From positions 13,698,198-13,762,197 of the forward strand of contig NC_087377.1 in NCBI RefSeq assembly GCF_963675165.1: 64,000 bases of DNA, given 5' to 3'. A model generated the notes under the pieces. That model made no database searches. It was not told the origin of the DNA and was given only the letters and a program-made list of their open reading frames with translations. A program made the position numbers and the translations under genes. Numbering within the stretch: the stretch's first letter is position 1; each line of letters opens with the position of its first letter. Shown one piece after another: positions 4,837-63,968 of this stretch. The DNA comes from Halichondria panicea. Taxonomy: Eukaryota; Porifera; Demospongiae; Suberitida; Halichondriidae.

Positions 4837-6417
4837 ATGACACTAATAGAGATAATAAAGCTCATAGTTTTTTTGATTTGCTTTCTGGCTGGCTTCAGCA
4901 CACTGGTAAGACTGACTATTCAATTATAGATTTCCTTACATTGCTGCATGTTTCATAAAGCCCAGTGAGTGTGGAGAGACCATGTCCAATGGAAACAGTC
5001 ACTTTCACCTGCACCGCTGCTGGAGATTCCTTAAGATGGGAACCGTCAGATGTTACTCGTCTTCTTGTCCGCTCTGATCTCAATGTACCAATGACGTTAT
5101 TTGGCTACACTGTGACACTGATTGCAGCCAATGACACTACATTAACATCTATTCTGTCAAGAACAGCAGAAAATGGGATCACTGTGTCGTGTGTAGATCC
5201 TGAGCCTACTGCGACCCTGATAGGATCTTCAATAATCCGTTTAGCTAGTGAGTAATGTTTTTTTTTCTGTCTATAGGCCATTGTACCATCATATTCGATT
5301 TCTTATAGATCCACCAGGACCACCTTCCATAATAAGACACTCCACTTTAAACACCTCAGCCAATGAAGTCAGTGTATCTGTACAGTGGAACCCTCCTATT
5401 GAGAATGGTAGTAGAGATGACCTCACCTACACAGTGACCATATCACCTCTGGCCCAGCTCTCTACTACTGTCCTCACATCCACCTCTGTCACGGTGACTT
5501 CTCAATACAATGTCGACTACATTGTCAGTGTTGTGGCTACCAACTGTGCCGGGAGCAGTACAACAGCTGAGCACAACTTTAGGATTGGTAAGTATTATTG
5601 TTTTGTACACACAGTTTCAACTGATCCTCTCAAGCAGCTGTCCTGCATTGACCAACCCCGTGAATGGAGCCTTTGAACCAGTCGCCAGCAGATTACCAGG
5701 ATCCACAGTAACCATCCAGTGTGGCGATGGGTATGTGTCTGCTGTTACAATGGTGACATGTGAGGGTATACTGATGTGGAGTCCAGACCCTGAGGCTATT
5801 GAGTGTACATTACTAACCACACCTACTCCTACAACTAGTGAGTTAAGCTCTTGGTTGTAGGAAATAAATACAAAATATCTTTACACAGCTCCTTCAATAA
5901 ACTGCACAGCTTCCCTATCCTCACCAAGGAATGGCACCATCAGTGATCATTCAGTACCAGCTATTCCCGGTACACAAGTGACCTTCCAGTGCGACGATGA
6001 ACTGTTCCCTGAGGGAATAATGACTGCTACCTGTCTAGCTACAGGAAAGTGGGACGAGGAGATCGTCTGCAGAGGCAAGTGTATTCATTACTTGAATACA
6101 CTTGCTTGTAATAATACTTTTCTCTTAAACAATCTACAGCTGCTCCTTGTAATTGTGCCAGCCTATCTGATGGGAGTCGATTTGATGCAGCTGTCTCCAT
6201 CAGCGTGGTTGTCACGACAGTTGTGTTCACAATTATTGGATTGTTGATAGGACTCTTGATCATGTATTTGCTCATGAAGGCAGTGTACTCCCCAGCAGCT
6301 AAAGAGCAAGCTAATGTAGGACCCACTATACCAGCTGGTCCTGTTTATGAGGAGGTGTCACCCAAAGAGGAGATTGAACTGAATACTAACCAGGCGTATG
6401 GACCAGTAGGACTGTGA
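4837..6417 (+). CDS. Receptor gene B: signal peptide, Ig-like, FN3, two CCP domains, TM, short tyrosine tail (junction problems)
   Basis: Tandem paralogue of gene A. Exons: 4837-4905 (signal peptide MTLIEIIKLIVFLICFLAG), 4961-5247 (Ig-like; here GDSLRWEPSDV is intact), 5309-5587 (FN3), about 5638-5837 (CCP1), 5889-6074 (CCP2), 6140-6417 (TM and tail ending GPVYEEVSPK ... NQAYGPVGL). The intron after CCP2 (6075-6139) again has a GC donor. Two junctions do not keep frame as read. The signal-peptide exon ends in phase 0 because of two extra bases before the donor, while the Ig exon needs another phase. No acceptor before CCP1 gives phase 1. Skipping CCP1 would be frame-neutral. The gene may be expressed in shortened form or be decaying; downstream exons are fully open. 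Confidence 0.75.
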
Positions 6418-17490: not shown

Positions 17491-20400
17491 CTAGTGCTTG
17501 GTGTATTGTTTAAAGGGGCGTGGAGGTGCCGGGGGTTCGCTGTTAGGGGCTGGTTTAGGGGGACGGGCTGGAACCATCTCACCAGGTCTGTATGGGGGAG
17601 AGAGAAATAAGGATCATTAATGTAGCTACGAGTAATTAGTAGTGTAGTACAAAACAATGTACAAAAGAACATCGATTATCCGGACACCTTAATTGTTTCC
17701 AATGAATATGCCGATTGATAAACCCTGATAGTGCATGTGGGCGTCTACGCATACATGCGCAGAAGATAAATATGCCTGTGTCTATGGTAACAGCTGTTAA
17801 TTGTGCATGAATATTAAGGGACACGCCCATTTTCCATTGCTAATCGAGGTTCTACTGTAACATTTGCCCAATTTTGTGTTATCACTGATGTTATTGTAGC
17901 AGACTAATTATACTGATTGCGTAGTTTCACACACACAGGTCATGCACTGAGTTCAGTGCCACAACATCATTTTTATAGACCACATACAGACTATTAGTCA
18001 TAGAACAGTGATGACGTAGAGTTCAGCAAATTCATAGAATAACCGTATAGCCAAAATTCTGCGAGTAGCTGAACCTTCTGTGGATAACATTTCTGCGAAT
18101 TAATTTTTCAACTGTTAAATTACTCGTGGTTAATAAGCATTTGCAGATAATATTTCTGCGTTTACTCATTCATTCGCAGAATTCACAAAATTTTTGGGCC
18201 ACAGAAATTTCTAGCTATATACGGTAGTGTAGTCCAGTTGCTCATTACCAGATACCACCACCTTTCGTTGGCTTATAATTATTAATTTTACTTACGACTG
18301 CTTTGGTTGTGTGATAAGGAATAAACTAGCTAGCTACCATATATAATTTATGAATTCGAATTAATAAGCACTCAACTTACGATTTAGGAGGGCGTGGGGG
18401 CGTGAGTATATTTAGTAGTCCAGGGCCATCATCGGTCACTGTAAGGGATTGAGAGGGGAGGGGTGGGGTTTTGCTGTATTTATCGAAGTATTTGGTGTTG
18501 CCAAGCATGAGCTCAACTCCATAGGGAAACAACATGTGTATATATGATTGTGTGGAGTGGAGAGTGATTCATTGGAATGATTCTCGCATTTTTAGTAGCG
18601 TAAAAACACAACTAGTACACATGCACAATAAAGTCAGCTCTCTGCAGAATACAACTACTTCTTGCAACATATATAAATAGTGGGTTTGGCGATTTGGCGA
18701 ATCAAGGTGAGGGTTGCCAAAATAAAAAATTGCCAGTTTTTACAGTCCCAGTATAATTATCGCAAGATATCAATAACACCATGCATGCAGCATGAATAAT
18801 TATGATTGTCAAATCAATGAGGCATCATTCGCCAAATAAAGGTGACTGGGTGAATTATGTTATAGTTAAACAATGGCCTCGAGTGGTATATTTGATTTAC
18901 ACGCGAGAGTAATCTGATAAACCACGAGGCGCAGCCGAGTTGGTTTATCTGATTACTCGAGCGTGTAAAGCAAATATACCACGAGAGGCCATAGTTTAAC
19001 TGGCTTGTACTATGTTTAGAACTGTACTACTATGTTTAGCTACTTCCTGTCATGCTTCTTCAATGAATATGCTTATAACTACTGTTTGACGTCACTGTTG
19101 CTATAGCTATGCAATGAATTGCTATCTTTTTAAAAAGCGCGATGGCTGATTCAAGCAAGCGTCTATGATTCAAGCAAGCAATTGTGAAGGCTGTGTTTCT
19201 GCATCTTTATAGAAGGCACTTCAAGAAAGTACACTGGTGCTACTTGTCTACAAAGAGTGCAAATGTACCCGAAAATATCATTCCACAAGCCTACTGTACT
19301 GGCCCAGTGCAGTGCAGTCTCTTTAGTCTGAGAAACACTTGGCAGTCTGGACCCTTCTTACTGCTCCTGGTCCCATGCAGCAATGCAATAAGCAGGTTGT
19401 GACAACCAATGTTGAAAGTTGAAAAAAAGCAACACAAACAAACCAGTATCGTTCGGTTCACGGAGTTCTTCCAAATTTGCCTCCTTTTTGGAACTATTCA
19501 TCGCTCGAACTTGGCTCTTTTTATGTTGACTAAAACATTAGTAGACCCTTTTTTGTATTGAATTCTCTCTAGCTCTAATATTGATTGAATTGAGTAGATC
19601 TAGTGTGTCATTGTTTTAATTGAAACAGTGTGTCAAAAAACCCAATTTTGTTGCAAAGGTGGGATACTGTATTCAGTTCTAGCTGTACATGTAGTTTGAC
19701 CACAAGCCACGGTATATGGCTGTTATACACTAGGGTATAACAGCCATATACCATGGCTGTGGTCAGACAGGTTGTATAAGTAGTATAAACTACAACTGAA
19801 GCCTTTGATCTTTGGTGCAACCATAGTACAAATATATATATACATTGTGTTGGTGCATGATAGTCCCAGTTGAGTGTTCAGCTATAAGTGAGCTAGGTAA
19901 CGTACGTACTATACAACATGAGAAAGTGTGTGTGTCAGCAAATGAGCCAGGTAGGTGTACACTATAGTATTATTATGGTTTCTAAGTAACGAAGCATTAT
20001 ATACATGTGCATGTACATGTATAATTATGTTACAACATAATATATACCCAAGTTCATTAGGAAGCATTCGATCTGTCTGACCTATGTCACAAATTACTCA
20101 CCATTGTATAACTGCAAGGTATACAAGGCGCTAACAATAACAACGCTTATATAATAACCAAGGACAGACCATGTATAATTATTATACCATGCACGCTTCA
20201 CAGTGAATCTGAATGTGCAATGTGGTGGATTAGTTAGGACAACACACCATCACCTATGCACACAACGACTCTTGGGACAAGTGGGTGTATGTGTGCAACA
20301 CTGATCGACGTTTTGTATAGCGCGAAACACTTATATTTCGTGGATTGCCCATTTCGTTGCACAATGTTCGCGGAATGACTGCTTACCGGAAGCCACGCCT

Positions 20401-23400
20401 TTAAATATTTGCACGTTATAGCAGGTAATTCTAATTAAAGAACAATTTTTGTGGACTTAATTTTCGTGTAGGATTGCTAACCCACAAAATCCGCAAAAAC
20501 TAAGCCCCTCGAAAATTTTGCGCTATACGGTACATGGGTTAAGTAATCATCAAACTATTTCTTAAAGGCAAGTTAAGGATACATCCTATTAATTTTATAG
20601 GCTTCAAACTATAATTATGTGACAATATCAATCTTACACACGTATAGTACTAGGGCTTAAGAAAAGCATTGGAGTCTCAACTATTAATTGCAGGCGTATG
20701 CACTGACTGTACTCACTAGTCCCGTAGATAGTCAGGAGTTCCTTTGACAGTTGCTCTTCTCCGATCTTACTGAGATGATCACCCAGCTCCCTCCATGTTG
20801 GTTGTCCAGAACAACTCCATTGGTTAATCACCTCCGTCAAGCAGCCAGCACTGTCATCGCAACATGAATCCTCAATCTGAGTTGAGAAAATGAGACTTAT
20901 GTATTTTGCCAGTGAGAAAATAATGATAAATCAGGGTATGAGAAAGTTACTTTGCACTGAAAGAACATGTACGTTAGCTCATACCCTTAACGTATTAAGA
21001 TGATGAATCTATGTTTACATCCATCCGTATATATACATACTCCTGCTCACACTTGCAATTGATAATTTTTACATACAACATACAATGATTACTGAATTAC
21101 GTACCTGTTGAATCAATGTCTCTGGCAGCCTCACAGTCTCAGCCAGCTCCCTCCACTTGTGTTTCATTGACCGGATTTGCACCAAGGCCTCGTCAATGTC
21201 CAGGAGTTTGTCTACATCAGCCGGGACTGAGGATTTGTTGGTGAGAGTATAATTATACCGTATATATATATATAGCAGGTAATTTTCGTTGGATAAAATA
21301 ATTATTAGTTATAATTTCCTGTGAAGCTGACCTCAATGAAGCAAACAAAATTTTTACTCACGCAAATCACCGTTCTCAAATTCAACAAATTTTTACCACA
21401 CCACGAAAATTACCCGCTATATAGGGTATACACACAGACATTGAACAAATAACCTATGGACTGGACAATTAAGCAAACAAGTTTTCCGCTCATGCTGCTA
21501 ATAATTATATAAACCACTCTAATCTCCCACTGTCCTATTGAACGACTGCATAACATACACTTTAGCCAAAACTATAATTATATATATATACACCAGGAAC
21601 AGAGACAACTCTACGTACCTATAATCACAAGAATGGGAAAACTATAAGCTTATACTGAAAGGAGAAGATTTCATAACATGATAATTGTCTATCTTGTACA
21701 AATATATCAAAACCATTGACAATGATATTCAAAGCAATGACTCAATCACACAAACAGACTCACCTGTTGGGCTGGCGGGGAGGGTGGCTGCTTGTTTCTT
21801 AGTGGCATCAATATCCACAGTGGCGTAGGTCACCTGATGTTGATTCGCTGTGGCAGTACTAGTCGTGTTGCTTTTCTGGTTGGAGCTAAGGACAGCATAG
21901 ACGACTGGCTCCAATGTGGCCTGTTAAGAAACAAACAGAGTAAAGAATACATAATTTTACTCTGCACTTATAATTGTACTGATTATACACAAACAGAAGT
22001 ATAGCACACGTTCGTGAATATAAATGTGATTGTAATAATTATACAATAATAACAATAATATCACTGTAATGACTAAACACAGAACACACTCACCACATTA
22101 CTGATCTGTCCATAGCCAGGTAGCCTCTGAGCGCTCTGCATATGATTATTATGATGATTGAGTCAAGATAAATTATTTGTACCTGTCCACTGTTCATTAC
22201 ACTGTATCTCTCTTCATTGACACCTATTGCCTGTATATATTGGAGGAATCCAAAAATCATATTAATATGCATACAAAAATATAAGGCTGGCGAGGTTACT
22301 ATCTATACCTTTTCACTGTTGATGGTAACACCATTGTAGGTTAATGAAGCAGGGTTCTGTGATAAAAATTAATTCAGCAGACTAAATTCACATGTGTCAA
22401 CCCACCAAATCATGAGTGACTCTGTTGTAACCTTCTTCGTCTGCTGCTGGAGGCTGGTACTGTGTTAAAAAAATTTATACCACACTTACGTCCCACTAAT
22501 TGATTTCATTGGTCAACAGCTGTACGATACATAGAAAAATAACATACAGCCCCAGGTATGTACAGTTTTCAAGTTGACTTTCAGGTTTTTCATTTGTTCA
22601 AGAAAATAAGCAAAGAGAAAGGGCCATGCATGCTTGACGAGACTCAAGCGACGGCGGAAGCTGCTTTCCAACAAGATGGCTAAGCCCCCATGGGTCCATA
22701 GGTGTGGTTTAGATACCAAGAAAAGCCTGCAACTCCAGTATGGGACATTGAATGGCCAATGCTAGGACCAAGGAGGCTTTTGAGTATCTGTAGGAGTCAA
22801 CGTTTTGCTCAACTACGTAGCTCTTTGACAGCTGCAAAAGCTGGCATAGTCTAGCTTGCTCTTTTTGCATTATGCATTGAATTGTTGCTAGGGGGAGGCT
22901 CTTTTATAGTGCTGCGGTCATGCATGTGGTATATAAGTTTTGTGTTGTAGCTCACGATAAGTATATAGCTTTAATAAAAGCCATGGGATCACAATACATG
23001 CATTCACTGAGACAATAATTAATACACCAACTAAAACCTACATCATTCATTTCCATACTGTCATTTGATTTGAGTCTTACGCTTTCTGTGAAAAACAGCA
23101 TTTTATATTACGTCATTCTTAAGTTTTGTGAATTATGTCAACTCACTTTTTCCCATTCTTCTGAAAACCACTAACATAACTATTGCCCCTAAAATGATGA
23201 GTAACATGATTACTATACCACCAACAACACCTCCAGCAACGTTCCCACGTGTTACTGCCACACCTATTATAATATAAGTATGTAGTATAATCATACATTC
23301 ATAATGTACAATTTTTATAGCAGGTATAATTGCATGTGAGATTGAGAGCACTACAGCATGCATATAATTATATATAAGTTAATAAGAATCTGATGTAGCT

Positions 23401-24753
23401 TACTGGATTCATTTCTGCAGACAATCTCCCCTGGGATCTTGTTCCACTCTCCTGTAGTTAGACAGGTGGCAGTCGTTATACCGTCAGGTAACAGTCCATC
23501 GTCACACTGGAAGGTCACATGAGTACCAGGAATAGCTGGTACTGAATGGTCACTGATGGTGCCATTCCGTGGTGGGGATAGTGGAGCTGTGCAGTTTATT
23601 GGAGGAGCTGTGAGATGCAAGAAGAATTATCAATATATACAACTAAGACGTACACTAACCCAACTCACGAGTTGTGGGAGCAGGTGTGGTAATTAGTGAT
23701 GTACACTCAATAGCCTCAGGGTCTGGACTCCACATCAGTGTACCCTCACATGTCACCATTGTAACAGCAGACACATACCCAGCATCACACTGGATGGTTA
23801 CTATGGATCCTGGCAAACTGGAGACTGGTCCAAACGCTCCATTCATGGGGTTGGTCAACACAGGACAACCTTCTGAGAGAAAGAATTGGAAATGTGACTG
23901 TGAGTGTGTGTTGATTTTCTCGATTATAATGAATGCTACCAGCTTTAATATTTATTAATACTGTCAACTCACCAATCCTGAAGTTGTACTCAGCAGTTGT
24001 ATACTGTTCCCAGCACAGTTGGTAGCCACAACACTGACAGTGTAGTCCACATTGTATTGAGCAGTCACAGTGGCAGAGGTGGATGTGAGACCAGTAGCGG
24101 AGAGTTGGGCCAGAGGTGAGACGGTCACTGTGTAGGTGAGGTCATCTCTACCACCAGTCTCAGTAGGAGGGTCCCACTGTACAGATACACTAACTCCAAT
24201 GGCTGAGCTACTCAGAATGGAGTGTATTATTGTGAAAGGTGGTCCTGGTGGATCTATGTATATGAGTGTTTACATAGCTTATGTATATACACAGACAATT
24301 AAAGGACGAGACACTCACCAACTAACCGGATCATTGAAGATCCTATAGTAGTTGGAGTAGGCAGTGGGTCCACACAAGACACAGTGATCCCATTCTCTGC
24401 TATTCTTGACAGAGTGGATGTTAGTGTAGTGTCATTGGCTGCAATCAGTGTTACAGTGTAACCTGATTCAACATTGGGTACACTGAGATCAGAGGTGGAG
24501 CGAACAGTAATGCGAGAAATATCTGATGGTACCCATCTCAAGGAATCTCCAGGAGCAGTGCAAGTGAAAGTGACTGTTTCCATTGGACATGGTCTCTCAT
24601 CACTCACTAAATATTGTGCTGTAAAGAAAGATTTACCACAATCATCACAATTCTGAAAAGTAATTATTATAGTTTGATACCATGTCCAGTGATAGCACTC
24701 CTAGAAGCAAAATAGAATATGACCACAAGGTCGTAGTATGGCCAACGAATCAT
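17491..24753 (-). CDS. Death-domain receptor gene C: Ig, FN3, two CCPs, TM, tyrosine mini-exons, death domain, proline-rich tail
   Basis: Predicted single-pass receptor of about 690 aa. Exons in coding order: 24753-24681 (signal peptide), 24618-24319 (Ig-like), 24253-23973 (FN3), 23872-23669 (CCP1), 23607-23404 (CCP2), 23263-23147 (TM, VIMLLIILGAIVMLVVF then RR), 23085-23042, 22459-22406, 22356-22309, 22230-22183, 22135-22094 (mini-exons), 21920-21764 (VVYAVL and VTYATV), 21226-21105 and 20876-20717 (death domain; KWRELAETVRLPETLI, PTWRELGDHLSKIGEEQL), 18516-18381 and 17587-17491 (proline-rich, VPARPPKPAP; ends in TAG). Junction phases agree throughout, except that the FN3 exon is two bases too long. 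A donor after 23990 (GTACAA) would restore phase 1. Extracellular exons match genes A/B; the cytoplasmic half matches the gene at 62.3-64 kb. The domain calls are strong; exact splice sites are inferred. The inferred role is sensing at the membrane, with output through SH2-type adaptors and a death-domain complex. Confidence 0.85.
18042..18225. mobile_element. MITE with ACCGTATA termini, in an intron/3' region of gene C
   Basis: It begins ACCGTATAGCCAAAATTCTGC and ends in the rough complement CTAGCTATATACGGT. It sits between the last two coding exons of gene C. Confidence 0.65.
18865..19000. mobile_element. Near-perfect palindromic element
   Basis: It is a 136-bp foldback: GTTAAACAATGGCCTCGAGT on the left is mirrored by ACGAGAGGCCATAGTTTAAC on the right, with 'taatctgataaaccacgagg' near the centre. 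It lies in the large intron of gene C between the death-domain and proline-rich exons. Confidence 0.8.
19700..19765. repeat. Hairpin repeat
   Basis: 'ccacggtatatggctgttatac' is followed after nine bases by its complement 'gtataacagccatataccatgg'. It is intronic in gene C and noncoding. Confidence 0.7.
20315..20531. mobile_element. MITE related to the one at 8755
   Basis: Its left end TTTTGTATAGCGCGAAA and right end CGAAAATTTTGCGCTATACGG are complementary. Internal blocks such as 'tgcttaccggaagccacgcc' match the 8755 element in the opposite orientation. It lies in the large intron of gene C. Confidence 0.75.
21257..21428. mobile_element. MITE (ACCGTATATA ... CCCGCTATAT) between gene C exons
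   Basis: The left end reads ACCGTATAT then AGCAGGTAATTTTCGT; the right end reads ACGAAAATTACCCGCTATAT. It sits in the intron between the ITIM-like exon and the first death-domain exon. Confidence 0.75.
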
Positions 24754-31334: not shown

Positions 31335-31832
31335 CTCGTAGCTGGTCAGGAGTTCCTTTGCCAGTTGCTCCTCTTTGATCTTACTGAGATGATCGGTCAG
31401 CTCCCTCCAGGCTGGTCGTCCAGAGCAACTTTTATCATCCATTGGTCAATCACTTCAGTCAAGCAATTAGCATTGTCATTGCAACACAAATTTTCAATCT
31501 AGTGGAGAAGATGAGATAGTATAATTGAGTGGGTAGTAGTACGATTAAACTAACAACATAACGGCACATGTATCTTATGAAACCACTCAAAGTAAGTAAT
31601 GAAACGGCAAGATTTAAGAATTACTTAGTCACCACTTTTGGTAAAGACTATACAGTGGACAAGTAATAATCACACTGAGCCAAAACACAGCCGGTAAAGA
31701 TCTGCTATACAATAAACATTACGTGAGACAATAAAGGGGTATACATGTACACTTACCAAATGGCCGGTAGCAGTGTGGGTAGGTGTGGTTGTGTCTCCTC
31801 TGAGGGGAGGTGGACCAGGAACTCCCTCATAG
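31335..31832 (-). pseudogene. Orphan YEGV tail exon plus frameshifted death-domain exon
   Basis: Exon 31832-31757 reads YEGVPGPPPLRGDTTTPTHT ... GHL, with clean CAG acceptor and GTAAG donor. The next exon, about 31498-31335, matches the second death-domain exon of genes C and D (CLTEVIDQWM, then SCSGRPAWRELTDHLSKI, EEQLAKELL). One extra base after QWM breaks the frame. No first death-domain exon or TM exon is nearby. It is probably a fragment of a third death-domain receptor. Confidence 0.7.
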
Positions 31833-38594: not shown

Positions 38595-40958
38595 TTATTG
38601 GGAATTGTCTTGTAATGATCTACTGACAGGATCCACGTAGTCATACTCGTGTTGTAGTTCACATCCCCCTATCTGACCCACAACACCTGTTAGCTGACTA
38701 TACGACTGGTTAGACTTCAGCAATATCTGCTTCTGCTCAATATTTATTAGCTCAGGATGCTCACTCATTCTCTTTGCTTTCGGTTTCACTTTGATTTCGC
38801 TGTACTGGTGACTCAATGATAAATCTTTTTGGCTGTTACATTCTGGAGTAGCATATGTCGGGCAAGCAGTCGTATTACTTTTGGCAGTTGAAAACTTACT
38901 GTCTGTGTGCCCGTAAGACTCGTTAGCTTTCAACTCAACTTCTGTCATATCCAAGACATTGACTTTGACTTTTGCTAGACCAACCTCATCGTACAAAACA
39001 CTGTTGGAATGCTGACCTTGTTTGGGAAGTGTGGAGGGTGAACTTTTTCTGCTAGGTGTCGTAACTATGCTGTTGAGTATTCACAAATATGACCAACATT
39101 GTATATGAAAGAAGTAAATCTATATGCAGAATGCATATGTACCACATAGGGCTTACCTAGTATTTTTGTTTTTAAATCGCAATGTGAATTCTGAAGTAGT
39201 CCGGGCAAACAACACAAAGTGTAGTGTTCAAGACGAAGTTGCAACATAATAATATTATAAAGCTATAACAAAAGTGAAACTTACTACGATGTTTGTACAC
39301 TCCGTATCCGATAAAGCTCCAAATAGTAATCAAAATTGTTATTCCCAAACATGAAATGACCAACATTGTATCAAGCATACTGTCGCGAAGTGTCATCTTA
39401 ACCTTACTGCATTGTGTACCTATGAGAAGATTAATTTTGTAAGAACAACTTTGCTAGCATAACACTATCTGTATAATTATAATTTTACATAATTTTACCA
39501 TACGAAATGATTCCATAGACAAATATTGAACAAATGCAAATGAATAGCAGCACGAGTAGGATCACCAAGGAAACAATGAGAGATTTCTTTCTACAGACAA
39601 ATGCTTTCACCTTGCAAAAAGCTGCATGTTCATTATTTTTGAGAGGAATTACTCATTTGGGTTGATAGTAACTTACCTCCTATAAAGAGTAATAAGAAAT
39701 GAATGACCGTCAAGAGAAGGTACAGTGAAGTTGTGCTAAGAATGGCAGTTGACCTTAGTGCAAAAGGGATCATTCGATCTGGCAGTGCATGCATAAGAAT
39801 TAATACACAAAAAGCGATTATTGACTCAAACCTATTAACCTGTTACAGATACATTTTCTTTGACACGTAAGTTTTTGTCTGCCTCCATTGAAAAATCAAA
39901 GTTGTGGACTGTACCAGGAATTGAATACGGAATATTCAACATGGTCATGCCATTAATAGGCTGAGCACTGATAACTGTGTGTCGTATAGAACATATAGAG
40001 CCTTCTTGAACAACTGTGCAACCAGCCAAGTGGAGACAGTCAGTTGAATTTACTTTGTTAGAAAAGTATAATTTGCTTCTGTGGCCTAATTATAGTGAAA
40101 TAGACATAGTGTGTATAAGAGAGGAGAAGCCAATGATTGTGTCTTACCTACTGGAAATCTGTACACCAGTACGTGTTTCCTCGGAATAATAGCAAGCAAA
40201 GTTAGTTCAGTGTAGTCTCCTAATATAGCTGAGGTTCTTATAGAGGAGAATCTAGCTTCACAAAATGGACCCACACAATTTCTTACATGCTTGGCTTCGT
40301 CAGATCCATTAATCGTCATGGTGTACATTAGAATCGAGGAGCACATCAACTATATATAATGTATACATTATAATGTCACAAGCGAAAAGAGTGTTTCAAT
40401 TTTTGAATTGTGATAATTATAGCTTACCAAATTCCTCAGTTGTACTTCTATGCTAGTCAGAACCCCAACATGGTAATTGGCAGTGATCTTTGTATTGACA
40501 AGATCCAATATTATATCAGATACCAACTTTTCCTCATAAGTAGCCACATCACCACATGTTATGCTAGTAATGTCTTGATTTTCTAGCTCTTGCAAATCAA
40601 CAGTAAGCATGGATGTAAAATTTGCAGGAGTTTCCATGTCAGAAACAGTGACCAATTGAACAGATAAGAAAGCAGGATTGCTGCTAACCGTAATATTATT
40701 AGAATGATCTGCAAGGAACACCTGTAGTTCTACACTTTTGGAAGAGTTTGAGCCAATGTAACTCCATCGTAATGATATAAGATCCACTCCTTCACAAATA
40801 AGCATCACACTCAGTCTGGCATTCTCAGAGCAAGCCACTTTCTCTTCATTTTTGACAGTTAGGTAAACTTCTGCTGCTACACATAATAGCATAGCCATAG
40901 CTATAATGATTACACATGCGTACAACACCTCCTCACAAGCAAAGCTCACCTTCAACAT
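38595..40958 (-). CDS. Gene I: Ig-like receptor with three TM segments and a tyrosine-rich tail
   Basis: Eight exons, open and in phase (609 aa): 40958-40428 (signal peptide with IIIAMAMLLCVAA; Ig-like, VACSENARLSVMLIC, later TSITCG), 40349-40148, 40085-39840, 39778-39677 (SLYLLLTVIHFLLLFIG), 39621-39499 (SLIVSLVILLVLLFICI), 39419-39285 (MLVISCLGITILITIW), 39190-39157, 39051-38595 (tail, stop TAA). Basic residues (CRKK) follow the first hydrophobic segment and KHR follows the third. The positive-inside rule then gives N-out, three passes, tail inside. The tail, roughly residues 458-609, holds VLYDEV, VELKANESYG, QYSEI, LLKSNQSYSQL and YDYVDP: candidate SH2 and NxxY sites. The two exons after the Ig exon are not assigned to a family. 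The start could also be a nearby upstream non-ATG-free region; the ATG at 40958 is the best in-frame choice. The ligand is unknown. Confidence 0.8.
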
Positions 40959-42397
40959 AAAAAACAATAGCAAACATGGAGATCAAACTAAAAAGCATTG
41001 TTTATAATTATGAAGGTCAATTTCGTTCAGGAGTTTAATTTATACTTATAAAACTTTATACAGCCCATCAGATCTATACCAAGCAGGAAACATATTAAGA
41101 TGCAAATGCTTCACATAAATAATTAGACTGATAACTAGATCAAAACTTTATGAGCCTGCATGCAGCCTGCAGGCTAGCGCTGGACACAATTTAGTATTGA
41201 GCTATATAGCTAAATTTATGCATGCTTATACAGTGGAAAATCTCAAATAAAATGTTATTGGCATATAAGTATCAGTCTGCAGTCCTTCTACTACCACTTT
41301 GTAAAATCTGATGCTCTAAATCAAACTCTTTCCATCAAAGCGCTTCAATCAAACTTTTGCTATTACCTTAATTATTGAGCAATCTATAAGAGGCGTTTTT
41401 CTCGATACTACATTTTACGGCTTCGAGTTTCTAATCCTAATTTGGTGAGTGTGTGACATGTGTGTTCAGTAGCAGTAGCTATATAGTGAGAGTATTATTA
41501 ATGGCCGCGGATCGGTGCCTGTTTTGATTGGCATTCTAACTTCTAACTTATAAAGACGTTATAGTGTTAAACAGTATAGGCACCCATGTCCAAAGACGCC
41601 AATGTAAGTGTCCATAAGTTGCCCACATGAGTATAGTATGTACAATTAGTATCATCCTAGGATGCATAATTATGTCCCAGCATTTTACGCCTCTCCACAG
41701 GATTACGGTGATTTACATACATTACGGTGATTACATAAATTACGGTGATTACGGTGATTACATACATTACACCGATCTATGATATCATTACAATGACATC
41801 ACTGCATTCTCTTAGTGCTTTCACTTTCTAGATACACTTTACATGAGCCCACTATACTAATGCCTATGCGGCTTTAATTCGAGGAACTTCACTACACATG
41901 AGCACTAGCACTATATATACAACTGCTGCATGGATCCCTGCAGGCTTCCTTGCTGGTCCTATAGTCCCAGCATAGCCTATAATTTATTATAGGTCCCAGT
42001 GAGTGATGTGTATTACCAAGAGTTCATGGTATGACCTACCACTGTAGACTAAAAACATTTTTAATTTAGCTTTACGCTACTGCCTTGGTGAGGTTCATGG
42101 TTAAAGCCTTGTTAATAATAATGTACCAGTATAATTATTATGTACTTTTTTTTTATAGTTGCATAATAATTATATAACTACTTTTACAACACTCTATAGT
42201 TGTAGGACATAATTTATATATTTATATAAATGTCTGGTTTAGCGCTCTAGTTCTGGACTGTCTATATATAGTAGTCGACTAGATATTGAAAGTGTCTAGA
42301 CTATAAATTATGTTGTTATAATGATCTTTATCATTGCTCTAGTTTAATCTGCACACCAGCAGTCAATTAGCATTATTTATTAGATGCAGCAATTGCA
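40959..42397. other. Intergenic, no gene recognised; small tandem repeat
   Basis: It is AT-rich. At 41701-41772 a 'attacggtgattacata' unit is repeated about four times imperfectly. No coding exon seen. Confidence 0.5.
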
Positions 42398-50141: not shown

Positions 50142-52409
50142 ATGGTGAACTTGTTAGTGATCAAGCATCTTCTGTTAGCAGTGATGATTGGCTCTCAATT
50201 AGAAGGAGGTATGAGATTGTGTTTCATGTGTGATTGAACATGAACCTGTACCATTTCAACAGAGGCCTCTTTAGTGTCCAACACGAGTGTGGCGTGTCCT
50301 GGAGAGACAGTTCTGTTCACATGCTCTGTGACTGGTACTACAGTGAGATGGCAAGTGGATCCTCCAGCGGAATCTGGGTTGATGTCTGTACAAAGTGCAA
50401 TCTTGCTTGGTTCTGGAGTTGGTCGAAGGGACACATTTGGATCTGGAGTGATCATGTTTGAGGCTGTTCTTGTGAGCAATGATGGTAGAACTCTGACATC
50501 CACTCTCATCAACCTCAGTGAAGTGTCCGTACTGGATGATAGCAATGTCACCTGTACTGTTCCTCAATTAAATGGTACAGTTGTTGAACTACTACGGACA
50601 ATCTCTGTTGCTGGTGAGTAGCTATTATAAACAATAGCACACATGCAGTCTCTTATTGCTTATGTTACACACAGGTAATCCAACCTCTCCACTCAACCCA
50701 AGTTTATCCTCTACTCAAAACCAGCTTAGCTCCTCTATTATCACCCTGGAGTGGGACCCTCCCTCCTCTACTGGTGGTGTGTCTGTCAACTATGTCCTCA
50801 TCATCTCCCCAACACCTCTCTCAGGGTCACCAGTCACCATGGATACCACCTCCATACAGATCACCATCTCCTACAACACACCCTACAATGTGACCATCAG
50901 AGCTGTCAACTGTGCTGGAATGAGTCAAGAAACTTCAATTGTTGATTTGAGTAAGCCGTTTCATGGGGAATGCTGTGATTGATTAGCAATTTTATTAAAA
51001 TATACATACTCGCGTTACTTTTAAATCAATGCAGTTGTGTGCCGCACACCGTCTACTGCTGCTGGTGTGACCATCACCAACACACCTCCCGTCACTATTG
51101 GTGGATCCATGCTCACCTTCACTTGTAGTGGAGACAATGAAGTGAGAACCTCAACCTGTGGCAGTAGTGGGTGGTCTCCTGACCCTGGGACCTTTAACTG
51201 TGGCAGTCCTACAGGTATCATATACATGGGCAATTAACTCTCTAAAAGGAATGTTGATCTCGTGCAGTAGATCCCCCAATCACCTGTGGTTCTCCTGCTA
51301 TACCATCTAGAGGTAGTGTGGACATCAGTGGTGGGACACCACCCTTCTCACTGGGTTCACAGGTCATCTATCGCTGTAACGATGGACTATTCCCCCCTGA
51401 TGTGAGGACCAGCACATGCACTGATGTGGGGGGTAGCGGAGAGTGGGTGGAGAATCCTGGGAGCTTGTTATGCAGGGAGAGGCCAGGTGAAATGTAGTTG
51501 GGCCAAGCCAACTTCTACATGTAGGCAGGCTGATAACAAAAAAAGCTCATTAAAAAATTAAGGGAGAGCGGGAGTTTTTAGACATAGGGAAATTGTTAGG
51601 CTTCCCAAACCACACTGGTAAGTGTGATAACAAATAACCTCTATAGAGTGGGTGGCGTTGGGTTTTTTTAGAGTTTCACAAAAGCATCCTTGAAGCATGT
51701 AAATAAGTTGGCTTGGCCTTGGTTTAGAGGCATAACTAAAAGTTATTTCTGCAACGTAAAATTGTATTATGTATGTACACCGCCTTTGTTCCACACTTCT
51801 TAATTATATATAAGTACATGTATTCAATGGCAGGTTATTGGATACTCATGTTGAGCTGATTCAGATACAAACATGTACTCATACAGTCATTTTCTTATAG
51901 TCAACTGCGCTCTTCCTACTGAGCCTTGCAATGGTGCTATAGTTGAGTATGAGAGGTTGAACAAGACAGTGTTGGAGGGAACAGTTCTGACTTACCAGTG
52001 TGACAATGGACTCTCACTGACTGGATCCAACACCATCACTTGCACTAATACTGGAGTCTGGAGCACTGAGCCTGAGGCAATCATGTGTGTAGGTCAGTAA
52101 TTGTTTGCTATCCCAAAATTAATACAGTCATATCTCACAGTTTCTACTGTCGCTCCCTTGTTCTCCACTTCTGCAACTGTCGCTATCAGTGTGGTCATCA
52201 CTTTCATTGTCACTCTAGTCATTGGATTCCTCACTGGACTGCTAGTGATGTATCTTTTCTTTCGTAAGAAAACAGTGTACTTCCCAACAACTGAAGGACA
52301 AACTAACGCAGCGTCCACTGCACCAGTTGGTCCTGTTTATGAGGAGGTGTCACCCAAAGAGGAGATTGAACTCAACACAAACCAGGCGTATGGACCATTA
52401 GGACTGTGA
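50142..52409 (+). CDS. Receptor gene H: intact Ig, FN3, three CCPs, TM, YEEV/NxxY tail
   Basis: All seven exons are open and in phase (517 aa): 50142-50208 (signal peptide MVNLLVIKHLLLAVMIGSQ), 50263-50613 (Ig-like, VACPGETVLFTC ... SNVTCTV), 50675-50950 (FN3), 51035-51214 (CCP1, IVCRTPS ... FNCGS), 51268-51486 (CCP2, ITCGSPAIPSRGS ... LLCRE), 51901-52092 (CCP3, VNCALPTEPCNGAIV ... IMCV), 52141-52409 (TM about residues 443-469, then FRKK and the tail). The tail has Y495 in VYEEVSP and Y512 in NTNQAYGPL, and ends at a TGA. Every intron is phase 1 with GT-AG ends. Expected at the plasma membrane, with the tail offering one Src-type SH2 site and one NxxY site. It is the only undamaged member of the trio. 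The ligand is unknown. Confidence 0.9.
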
Positions 52410-57719: not shown

Positions 57720-58640
57720 TTGTACTAGGGTGAATAGATTTGGTAAAGACTTCAGAACAGATAAGCAACAATCACTCTGAGCCCAAACAGACGGTAAAGA
57801 CCCACTCTACAATAAACATGAAGTGAGACAACAGTTAAGCAGATATCTGTGCTTGTGTGTGTGTGTGCCCCCCCCCCCCTCCCCCCCCTCTCCCCCCCTC
57901 CCCCCACACACACGCACGCACAGTTATCAGAGCTACAGCCGTTAGTTTTAAAACAGTCAATAGATGCATTTAAAGGGAATGACAACTTAAAATGAAATCA
58001 GGGATGATTCATGCATGCAGGTGAATCTTACTGGACATGTACTCTACTGTGGTGCTTACGTAGATGTACGTACATGTATGCTTGAACAAAAGTTTCAGTC
58101 TCACTTACTCATTACATTATGCACTACCCCCCCCCCCCCGGGACATACGGGGGATTTTGACTTTAACTTGACTTGAAATGTTACTCCATACTTGGGGATT
58201 TGACCTGGCTTTGCGTAGTAATTATAAAGACTGCTTTTATAACCTGTTTGCAACTGCTTGGTGCTCAAACTCCCTGTTGACTAGGAGATTTGAACACAGA
58301 ATCCTTCCCCCCACCAGGGGGAATTTGACCTAAGGTATGGTCAAATCCCCCATGTTAGCCCGACCCCCCCCGGCCCCGAGGGTGGGGCGACACATTGATA
58401 GGTGCATTACCACTAGATCTATCACATGCCAATATCTATTAAACATACTGATGCATACTCACCAGCTAGCAGCAGCCTCAGGAGTTTCTTTGCCAGTTGC
58501 TCCTCCCAGATCTTGCTAAGATAATTATGATCTGCCAGCTCCCTCCATGTTGGTCGTCTGGCCAGAGCAACTCCTTGCATCCTCCATTTAATAGTCAACC
58601 ACTTCAGTACAGCAGCTGAGACAAAACAGACGGTAAAGAT
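57720..58640 (-). pseudogene. Diverged copy of the YEGV/death-domain block, with a death-domain exon relic
   Basis: 'acggtaaagacccactctacaataaacat' and 'catttaaagggaatgacaac' match the 31.6-33.9 kb blocks. 58605-58480 is antisense to the second death-domain exon ('gccagctccctccatgttgg', 'gccagttgctcctcc') but has extra bases and stops. The poly-C run at 57868-57905 replaces the place of the YEGV exon. Confidence 0.55.
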
Positions 58641-62339: not shown

Positions 62340-63968
62340 CTAGTGCTTGGTGTAGTGCTTAGAAGGGAGTGGAGGTGCCGGGGGTTCGTTGTTAGGGGCT
62401 GGTTTAGGGGGACGGGCTGGAACTATCTCAATAGTTCTGCATGGGAAAAGTGATCAAGATAAGAACCGTTAACACTACTAGATGATACAAGGGTAAAGTT
62501 ATGATGACAGAACCACAGTTTATAATTATTTGTATAGCTCAAACATGGGAGACACGTACATGTATTCGATGCATCTGTGGACCCATTATCCCAACCTATA
62601 CCAACCTATACGGACACCTCACCCTTTCGTTGGATTAAGGTTTACCTATAAAAACTTCGATTGCTGACTACCATACAATTGCATTGGTAGTTATACATGG
62701 AAGCATGTTTTGTGGCACTCAACTTACAGTTTAGGAGGACGTGAGGGAGGCAGTGCCTTTGGTAATCCGAGACCGTCATCTGTCATGGTGGGGGATCGAG
62801 AGGGGAGGGGAGGGGGAGGGGCTCGGTCGTACTTGTACACGGTACTTGGTACTGCCTTCATGTTCAACTCCACTGGGAGGCGACCTGTGAGTGAGTGTGA
62901 CGAGTGGGGTAGTGTGGGTCATAATCATACTGTAGGGTGTATTTTGCTCCAGCAATTAAACTACTTGGATCGAGTTAACAGCTGTTAAACATACAGAGAC
63001 TCATTTTGGTAAACAGGGAAGCATAATTATTATGTTGTATACCACAGTTCTCAATTTCTCAATGAATGGAGAGAAGAGCAAGAATGTGGCTTGTTGTAAA
63101 GTGAAGCAGTGTTGTGTCTAGTGGTTGGGTAGTTAGGACAAAACACAATACTGCCCACACAATCAAGGGAAGCCAGGTGTGGGCCCTTGGGATAAGTGGA
63201 TACATATGTACATACATGATGTACATGTACAAGTACATGATTATAATGATAATGACCTTTTGTGATGGCAGTTTAGAGATCGAGCTAAGGTAATTTGAGT
63301 ACAACATTGTGACTGTCAATTAGAAAGGCTATTAGGGTTGCTTAAACATAGGTATAGCAATAACAACAACATGCTTTTCCAACAACATACAGTCGATTGT
63401 GAGTATTAAACATGTGTACGGACACAATGACAGACCACTATTACAGCAACACACATGAAACCACTACTTACCAGTATTATAGATATTCAGGAGTTCTTGC
63501 GACAGTTGCTCTTCCCCGATATTATGGAGATAACCAGCCAGCTCCCTCCAGGTTGGTCGCCCAGAACAGTTTCTCATCCACTGGTCGATCACCTCCGTTA
63601 GACATCCACTATGGTTGACTCCACATGAATCCTCGATCTAAAATGAGATATTTGAGTGAGTTACACCAACAATAGATCGGCACTTCTATTTGTACGATTA
63701 AGGTGTGACCAGACAATGGGTTAATTATAGACTGTTATTGTTATCAACTTTCATCATTTAAAAAAACAACACATTCCTTCACACCACGTACAGAACAATG
63801 ATTGACCCTTGATAGATTTAAGATTAGTAAGTACCTGCTCAATCATTGTTTCAGGCACCCTCATAGTCTCAGCCAGCTCCCTCCATTTGTGTTCCATTGA
63901 CCTGATCTGGACCAAGGCCTGGTCAATGTCCAGGAGCTTGTCCACATCAGGCAGGGCTGGGGCTGAGG
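62340..63968 (-). CDS. Gene D (3' part): second death-domain receptor, cut by the window edge
   Basis: Four in-phase exons: 63968-63835 (DVDKLLDIDQALVQIRSM, KWRELAETMRVPETMIEQ), 63637-63472 (death-domain second half, CLTEVIDQWM, PTWRELAGYLHNIGEEQL), 62884-62728 (NMKAVPSTVYKYDRAPPPPL, then TMTDDGLGLPKALPPSRPPK), 62436-62340 (IEIVPARPPKPAPNNEPPAP ... HYTKH and TAG). Exon sizes and phases match the last four exons of gene C exactly or within one codon step; even the 3' flank ('aagctgacaattaaatgatt') is similar. The upstream part lies beyond 64000. Polyproline stretches suggest SH3 binding. Here the penultimate exon has a clean CAG acceptor, unlike gene C. Confidence 0.85.

Follow-up and report, generated by a model that had tools for sequence, protein, structure and literature searches.

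A 64,000-nucleotide stretch of the genome of the sponge Halichondria panicea (contig NC_087377.1, here C1, positions 13698198-13762197; hereafter the window) carries a 16-exon gene that probably belongs, possibly as a damaged copy, to a clustered family of type I recognition receptors with predicted phosphatase and death-type outputs. The exons lie on the minus strand from 24753 to 17491 of the window with AG/GT borders (Table 1). Their arrangement is more than chance, being repeated at further loci of the genome (131 Mb, 39 contigs searched). An initial annotation, made from the letters alone, had described one membrane receptor joining an immunoglobulin (Ig)-FN3-CCP-CCP ectodomain to motifs resembling immunoreceptor tyrosine-based inhibitory motifs (ITIMs) and to a death domain, all on one strand with agreeing splice phases. 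The single strand, the elements and their order are borne out, from a signal-like start through FN3, two CCP domains, a transmembrane segment, tyrosine motifs and a split death domain to a proline-rich end. Agreement of the splice phases holds for the family but not for the window copy, whose FN3 exon is off by two extra bases and needs a weak donor. The joined receptor is well supported, while the window copy itself may be broken.

The genome was searched with the death domain, the tyrosine region, the Ig exon and an alternative tail. By our own reading of the death-domain search, at least 15 loci, the window included, carry both death-domain exons within about 1 kb, a lower bound given that the best 150 of 255 candidates were scored; among the matches listed there were also two first-half exons without a close second half and two more partial copies. 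All 15 loci were read (the window, 12 loci that were fetched and mapped, and L015 and L016). Every one of them has exon 12, the two death-domain exons and exon 15, and exon 16 was found in 13, the exceptions being L005 and L015 within the pieces fetched. In 14 of the 15 loci, FN3, the transmembrane exon and at least one CCP piece precede the death-domain exons on the same strand; the piece of the remaining locus, L015, begins 1.2 kb before exon 12, so that its ectodomain region falls outside the piece. The Ig-like exon is found in 13 of the 14 loci with ectodomain coverage (L006 gave no Ig match), and the transmembrane exon matches with 88% identity in L001 and 78% in L002. Because 14 loci show the same order, we rejected the idea of a single odd gene. 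The automatic models of L005 and L006 lost the ectodomain to a false exon-1 match, and both loci were judged from the mapping of exon matches.

In L002 the gene is intact, all 16 exons joining as one frame of 677 amino acids. Script-placed exons, when joined, gave a single terminal stop in seven out of seven near-type paralogs, with one to six exons unplaced in each except L002 (CCP1, CCP2 and exon 10 in L001; CCP1, CCP2 and exons 8-11 in L003, where a CCP match exists with its borders unset; CCP2 and exons 8-11 in L010; exon 1 in L004, L011 and L012), and most borders set by the script lie at the exact homologous place. A distant member (L014, C1:14424500-14434000) has, all on the same strand, two CCP exons (Sushi scores of 20.3 and 21.3 bits against 20.7), a transmembrane segment and a tyrosine exon (VYSEV, YTTVDFEATK) flanked by two death domains. 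Each death domain is encoded by a single exon, with scores of 24.8 and 29.6 bits, and no Pfam match was obtained for the N-terminal domain. A second copy of L014 lies near C1:14.507 Mb.

The initial annotation had set against its own reading an arrangement of two genes, in which a short receptor ends after the transmembrane exon and the death-domain exons belong to an adjoining gene downstream. We regard this as very improbable, since exons 7, 12 and 13 start at acceptor sites, the placed exons from the transmembrane segment to the stop form one frame in all seven near-type paralogs, 14 of 15 loci show the same order and strand, phases too recurring across loci, and L014 likewise has CCP exons and a transmembrane segment upstream of its death domains. 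What speaks for two genes is that many sister receptors bear another tail directly after the transmembrane segment (at least 150 tail-exon matches) and that the introns were not searched for a separate start exon.

The initial annotation had named three Pfam families for a hidden Markov model search of the spliced protein, and all three matched, Sushi above its cut-off, fn3 and Death below theirs. Sushi (PF00084) was matched in two stretches of the spliced window protein (1.3e-11, 45.1 bits against a gathering score of 20.7), fn3 (PF00041) at 3.6e-4 (21.1 bits, cut-off 25) and Death (PF00531) at 1.3e-3 (19.2 bits, cut-off 22.6). In the whole proteins of the window, L002 and L004, fn3 stayed under its cut-off throughout (21.1, 17.8 and 20.2 bits) and Death scored 19.2, 23.1 and 16.9 bits. 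The window death domain passes when excised (24.4 bits), and Death was matched at E≤0.01 by all ten related domains, taken from 8 of the 15 loci and from both death domains of L014. In a whole-genome Pfam Death scan (148 matches, best 150 of 503 candidates) the two window exons over which the domain is split were not among the matches listed. Against solved structures, a profile (A1) of the same ten domains was nearest to FADD (7.6e-6), followed by RIPK1 (0.0058) and THO complex subunit 1 (0.019), and above an E value of 0.04 proteins without a death domain also appeared; a single death-domain sequence retrieved two designed proteins alone (E values of 0.0049 and 0.036). The FN3 profile (A4, 7 of 14 family members) matched FN3 domains of titin (7.4e-21), Eph receptor and NCAM. 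The Ig-like exon is the weakest of the domain calls: the Pfam search gave no match for exon 2 of the window copy, an AlphaFold model built from six window sequences was uninformative (predicted local distance difference test score of 43.5), and a family profile (A3) of 11 sequences, leaving out L005, L010, L011, L014, L016 and the window stretches at 4962, 45821 and 42505, retrieved mostly Ig light chains, with CD3 epsilon second and a best E value of only 0.034.

The ITIM consensus, [SIVL]xYxx[IVL], is cytoplasmic and usually occurs in tandem, while YxxM motifs are bound by PI3K and YxEV motifs by Src-type SH2 domains. The tail of the window copy has six tyrosine motifs, four on mini-exons and two in exon 12. 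Exon 12 carries the ITIM consensus twice in all 15 loci (VVYAVL, VVYAAL or VIYAAL, and VTYATV), and in its alignment 10 of the 12 motif columns are invariant compared with 8 of 46 elsewhere; consensus match and conservation are the grounds for the term ITIM-like used in the initial annotation. The mini-exon motifs of the family are YNR[IV] or YSR[IV] (YNII in L001), LTYDEV, GYS[VT]M and YGQL, with the variants LTYNGV, RYSVM and YGQI in the window copy.

Pooled ratios of nonsynonymous to synonymous substitution (dN/dS; Nei-Gojobori, custom script) point to tighter constraint on the tail than on the ectodomain. Among 13 of the 15 genes (without L015 and L016; 78 pairs) the ratio was 0.19 for the death domain and 0.36 for exon 12, and among the eight near-type genes it was 0.21 for the death domain, 0.45 for the transmembrane exon, 0.61 for the Ig exon and 0.72 for FN3. 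The values for the two CCP domains (0.59 and 0.49, seven genes each) mix non-orthologous domains, since L003 and L010 carry another CCP type, and were set aside. No pooled ratio exceeds 1, and single pairs do so in 2 of 28 cases for Ig and 5 of 28 for FN3; the difference between ectodomain and tail is best read as a contrast of constraint, not as proof of positive selection.

Tails have also been exchanged among family members. The ectodomain tree separates the window copy, L001-L004 and L010-L012 from L005-L009 (support 100/100; L006 only 31% filled), whereas the tail tree separates the window copy, L001, L002, L003 and L010 from the rest (support 100/99), and this conflict identifies L004, L011 and L012 as mosaics. 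Compared exon by exon, these three have the ectodomain and exons 8-9 of the first type and exons 14-15 of the second. The breakpoint can be placed only roughly, since exons 10-13 give mixed results or are equally near to both types, and in L011 and L012 exon 16 lies slightly closer to the first type. L001 and L002, about 860 kb apart, share 4.4 kb at 98.4% identity, introns included, starting in the intron that precedes exon 13; identity is 94.6% around exon 12, 88% at exon 11 and 73-82% in the blocks from the ectodomain to exon 9. Such a pattern would be expected after gene conversion or unequal exchange of a tail cassette.

The search with the Ig exon listed 133 matches, in part fragments of a single exon (best 150 of 188 candidates scored), and all those listed lie at C1 10.42-14.93 Mb except one on C32. 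An alternative tail exon (GPVYEEVSPKEEIELNTNQAYGPVGL) gave at least 150 matches (best 150 of 293 candidates), all at C1 11.25-14.93 Mb, a cluster spanning about 3.7 Mb. From these counts, the death-domain tail is seen as a minority form within a very large clustered receptor family. Three sister tail exons lie on the plus strand of the window, at 1617-1925, 6115-6417 and 52101-52409, with a short tail that ends VYEEVSPKEEIELNTNQAYGP.

Mammalian death domains can serve as scaffolds without killing, and this counts toward a different reading, in which the Ig-FN3-CCP proteins are adhesion or matrix receptors whose death domain is a scaffold without death or immune signalling and whose tyrosines serve endocytosis or the cytoskeleton. 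In the portion of PMC4704026 on which we draw, fibronectin and immunoglobulin domains are described as numerous in sponges and are treated under cell adhesion. Nevertheless, three features fit recognition families better than housekeeping adhesion: the cluster of at least 150 tail-exon copies, ectodomain ratios that exceed the death-domain ratio about 2- to 3.5-fold across the eight genes compared, and the exchange of tails as modules. We therefore consider an adhesion or matrix role rather unlikely.

The window copy itself departs from the family in its FN3 exon. A strong donor (TTG|GTGAGT) lies at 23973, but the resulting frame misses CCP1. Near 24003 the window copy reads AACAGTATACAAC, whereas the paralogs read without the TA; these two bases are absent in all five near-type paralogs that could be matched by pattern at the site (two others were unmatched), and the FN3 match extends to the exon end in seven of seven. 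A weak donor after 24005 would restore the frame at the cost of the last FN3 strand, so that the copy appears either to be frameshifted (as a pseudogene, an allele or an assembly slip) or to be spliced through the weak donor. The joined architecture is independent of this failed junction.

That the window copy is a pseudogene, an allele or an assembly artefact, in which the extra bases stop translation soon after FN3, is a serious possibility to which we give a little less than an even chance. The family would then be real, with at most a secreted Ig-FN3 fragment and no receptor made from the window gene. The restriction of the extra bases to this copy favors such a defect, as do the diverged motifs LTYNGV and ERYSVM and a tail dN/dS that is the highest of ten pairs (0.40 against L002, compared with 0.16-0.29 for the other nine), which fits relaxed constraint. 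Set against it are the existence of the weak in-frame donor, ratios against L002 that are still below 1 (ectodomain 0.52, tail 0.40) with the remaining frame open, and the fact that a dinucleotide slip can equally be an assembly error.

The frameshift, the two divergent tyrosine motifs and the raised tail ratio all weigh against our reading of the window gene as a recognition receptor, and several further points weigh against it at the level of the family or of the methods. Whole-protein Pfam scores for Death and fn3 are near or under their cut-offs. The exon script allowed only borders in the phases of the window copy, and so produces part of the phase agreement itself. L003 and L010 gave no match to exons 8-11. 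In L001 the CCP region is present only as fragments, and the FN3 match of L005 contains a stop, so that these two regions look damaged; not every family copy is intact or complete. Gene conversion shapes both ectodomain and tail, and the low dS of FN3 (0.167) inflates its ratio. The ITIM consensus can arise by chance and leaves the sign of the signal unfixed, and the YDEV and YSVM sites might just as well bind kinases or PI3K. Finally, the architecture is seen at the level of DNA.

Candidate partners for both predicted outputs are present in the genome: a gene of the SH2-SH2-phosphatase (SHP-like) type at C3:8.405 Mb, a gene with a death effector domain (DED) and a death domain (FADD-like) at C7:1.623 Mb, and DED-DED-caspase genes at C10:0.860 Mb and C10:2.92 Mb, the first of which was read. 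Domain order and reading of the sequences suggest a likeness to SHP, FADD and caspase-8, respectively. If the gene is transcribed, the Ig-like/FN3/CCP ectodomain would be the variable recognition part, and ligand contact would cluster the receptors. The ITIM-like tyrosines of exon 12, once phosphorylated and helped by the mini-exon tyrosines, may recruit an SHP-type SH2-SH2 phosphatase, the death domain of the clustered receptor may engage a FADD-type adaptor and DED-caspases, and the proline-rich end may bind SH3 adaptors. We infer the order and sign of these steps as a gated death switch, in which the docked phosphatase would silence the receptor when the contact is with self or a matched partner, and loss of this damping or strong clustering would release the death (FADD/caspase) arm or an NF-kB-type arm. 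The receptors would thereby recognize self, kin or microbes, allorecognition being one possible use.

A broader and more tentative proposal, which we think may hold but would not presume, is that C1 from about 11.2 to 14.9 Mb, with its at least 150 tail exons, is a poriferan allorecognition or immune complex of the paired type, in which gene conversion plugs shared ectodomains into alternative tails, one of them a switch of tandem ITIMs and a death domain. If true, a single receptor molecule would be able both to veto and to execute cell death.

Table 1. Exons of the window copy and of a second family member; positions are those of the window.
Feature	Position	Strand	Content and remarks
Exon 1	24681..24753	-	Start codon and hydrophobic signal-like peptide MIRWPYYDLVVIFYFASRSAITGH, read without a signal-peptide predictor; similar exon in L001 and L002
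Exon 2	24319..24618	-	Ig-like domain, phase 1-1
Exon 3	23973..24253	-	FN3 domain; frame shifted by two extra bases (TA) near 24003; a weak donor after 24005 is the alternative
Exon 4	23669..23872	-	CCP/Sushi 1
Exon 5	23404..23607	-	CCP/Sushi 2
Exon 6	23147..23263	-	Transmembrane segment GGVVGGIVIMLLIILGAIVMLVVFRRMGK; hydrophobic stretch read directly
Exon 7	23042..23085	-	Juxtamembrane
Exon 8	22406..22459	-	Tyrosine mini-exon, EEGYNRV
Exon 9	22309..22356	-	Tyrosine mini-exon; LTYNGV in the window copy, LTYDEV in 8 paralogs with a modelled exon
Exon 10	22183..22230	-	Tyrosine mini-exon; ERYSVM in the window copy, GYSVM/GYSTM in 7 paralogs with a modelled exon
Exon 11	22094..22135	-	Tyrosine mini-exon, PGYGQI
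Exon 12	21764..21920	-	Two ITIM-consensus motifs, VVYAVL and VTYATV
Exon 13	21105..21226	-	Death domain, first half
Exon 14	20717..20876	-	Death domain, second half
Exon 15	18381..18438	-	Linker ending in TPPRPPK; present in 15/15 loci
Exon 16	17491..17587	-	Proline-rich C-terminus (PARPPKPAPNSEPPAPPRPFKQYTKH) and stop; present in 13/15 loci
L004, 3' half (exons 13 to 16)	62340..63956	-	Second family member, 5' part beyond the window end; coordinates converted by hand

Elsewhere on the minus strand of the window, matches to the second death-domain exon at 31335-31513 and 58473-58619, with no first-half or exon-12 match listed nearby, are apparently relics of the family. A receptor-like gene at 38595-40982 on the same strand, recognized by eye from the open reading frames, resembles L014 in its diverged N-terminal stretch (CEGVDL) and has a tyrosine-rich tail of its own. 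Outside the window, a crowd of matches to tyrosine-phosphatase domain exons lies on contig C4, mostly at 0.04-2.6 Mb, and the locus L013, around C1:5280527, is a nuclear fragment of mitochondrial cox1. This fragment reads like the cox1 of sponges, and together with the small genome and its many death-domain matches it points to a demosponge as the likely host.

No receptor joining Ig, FN3 and CCP domains to ITIM-like motifs and a death domain was found in the literature searched, which lay mostly outside subscription journals, so that novelty is unproven; the combination had also been unfamiliar to the author of the initial annotation. UNC5 netrin receptors similarly have an Ig ectodomain, a single transmembrane segment and a cytoplasmic death domain near the C-terminus. 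They differ by their TSP1 repeats, by a ZU5-UPA module that precedes the death domain and in having no known CCP, and membership was rejected as hmmscan gave no ZU5, UPA or TSP1 match in the window protein, L002 or L004. The same three proteins gave no TNFR cysteine-rich match and no TIR match, so that membership in the TNFR death receptors and in the sponge Ig-TIR receptors was rejected as well. Vertebrate paired receptors (KIR, LILR) are clustered Ig families with ITIMs or immunoreceptor tyrosine-based activation motifs (ITAMs), in which the same ectodomain type occurs with different tails, and we know of no death domain or CCP in these or in the Hydractinia Alr receptors. The Alr complex, as described in parts of PMC11999971 and PMC12065747, likewise consists of clustered Ig receptors with ITIM or ITAM motifs. 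The TNFR-type death receptors Fas, TNFR1 and p75NTR resemble the present family in placing a death domain close to the end of a receptor with one membrane pass (PMC8195603, in part), and our death-domain profile is nearest to FADD, the adaptor of such receptors; unlike them, the present family has an Ig-FN3-CCP ectodomain and adds tandem ITIM-like motifs.

Closer in taxonomy, sponge Ig-TIR receptors and an Ig-CARD gene combine Ig domains with a TIR or death-superfamily signalling domain, TIR or CARD in place of a death domain, and CCP and ITIMs go unmentioned for them in the sections of PMC12909245 and PMC6208332 used here; among the genes of Dysidea avara that change when microbial patterns are applied is one that encodes Ig domains together with a CARD (PMC6208332, in part). 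Compared by described architecture, the nearest described system, and the one that the present family appears most like, is the fester co-receptor (FcoR) family of the fuhc locus of Botryllus schlosseri, with 53 loci and the order Ig, Sushi, Ig, Ig, transmembrane segment and ITIM or hemITAM (PMC12065747, in part). Both are large clustered type I families with Ig and Sushi domains and a long ITIM-type tail, the tail motif of FcoR varying among members, whereas FcoR are tunicate proteins with a Sushi and three Ig domains for which the consulted part of that source does not mention a death domain; the present family could be described as FcoR-like plus a death domain. A grafting study of Amphimedon cites previous reports that a death-domain protein, DD2, increases when sponges reject allografts and that apoptosis occurs in such grafts, while its own data, in the part drawn on here, are without enrichment of apoptosis genes (PMC5450542).

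The innate-immune or allorecognition role suggested in the initial annotation is plausible. To our knowledge, the genes of self/non-self recognition in sponges are not settled, and a clustered family with a fast-changing ectodomain and a tail bearing a death domain and ITIM-like motifs would be a concrete candidate. In vertebrates, as far as is known, inhibitory motifs and death domains are divided between different receptors; if our reading is true, inhibitory-motif and death-domain signalling would be fused in one receptor of a very early-branching animal.

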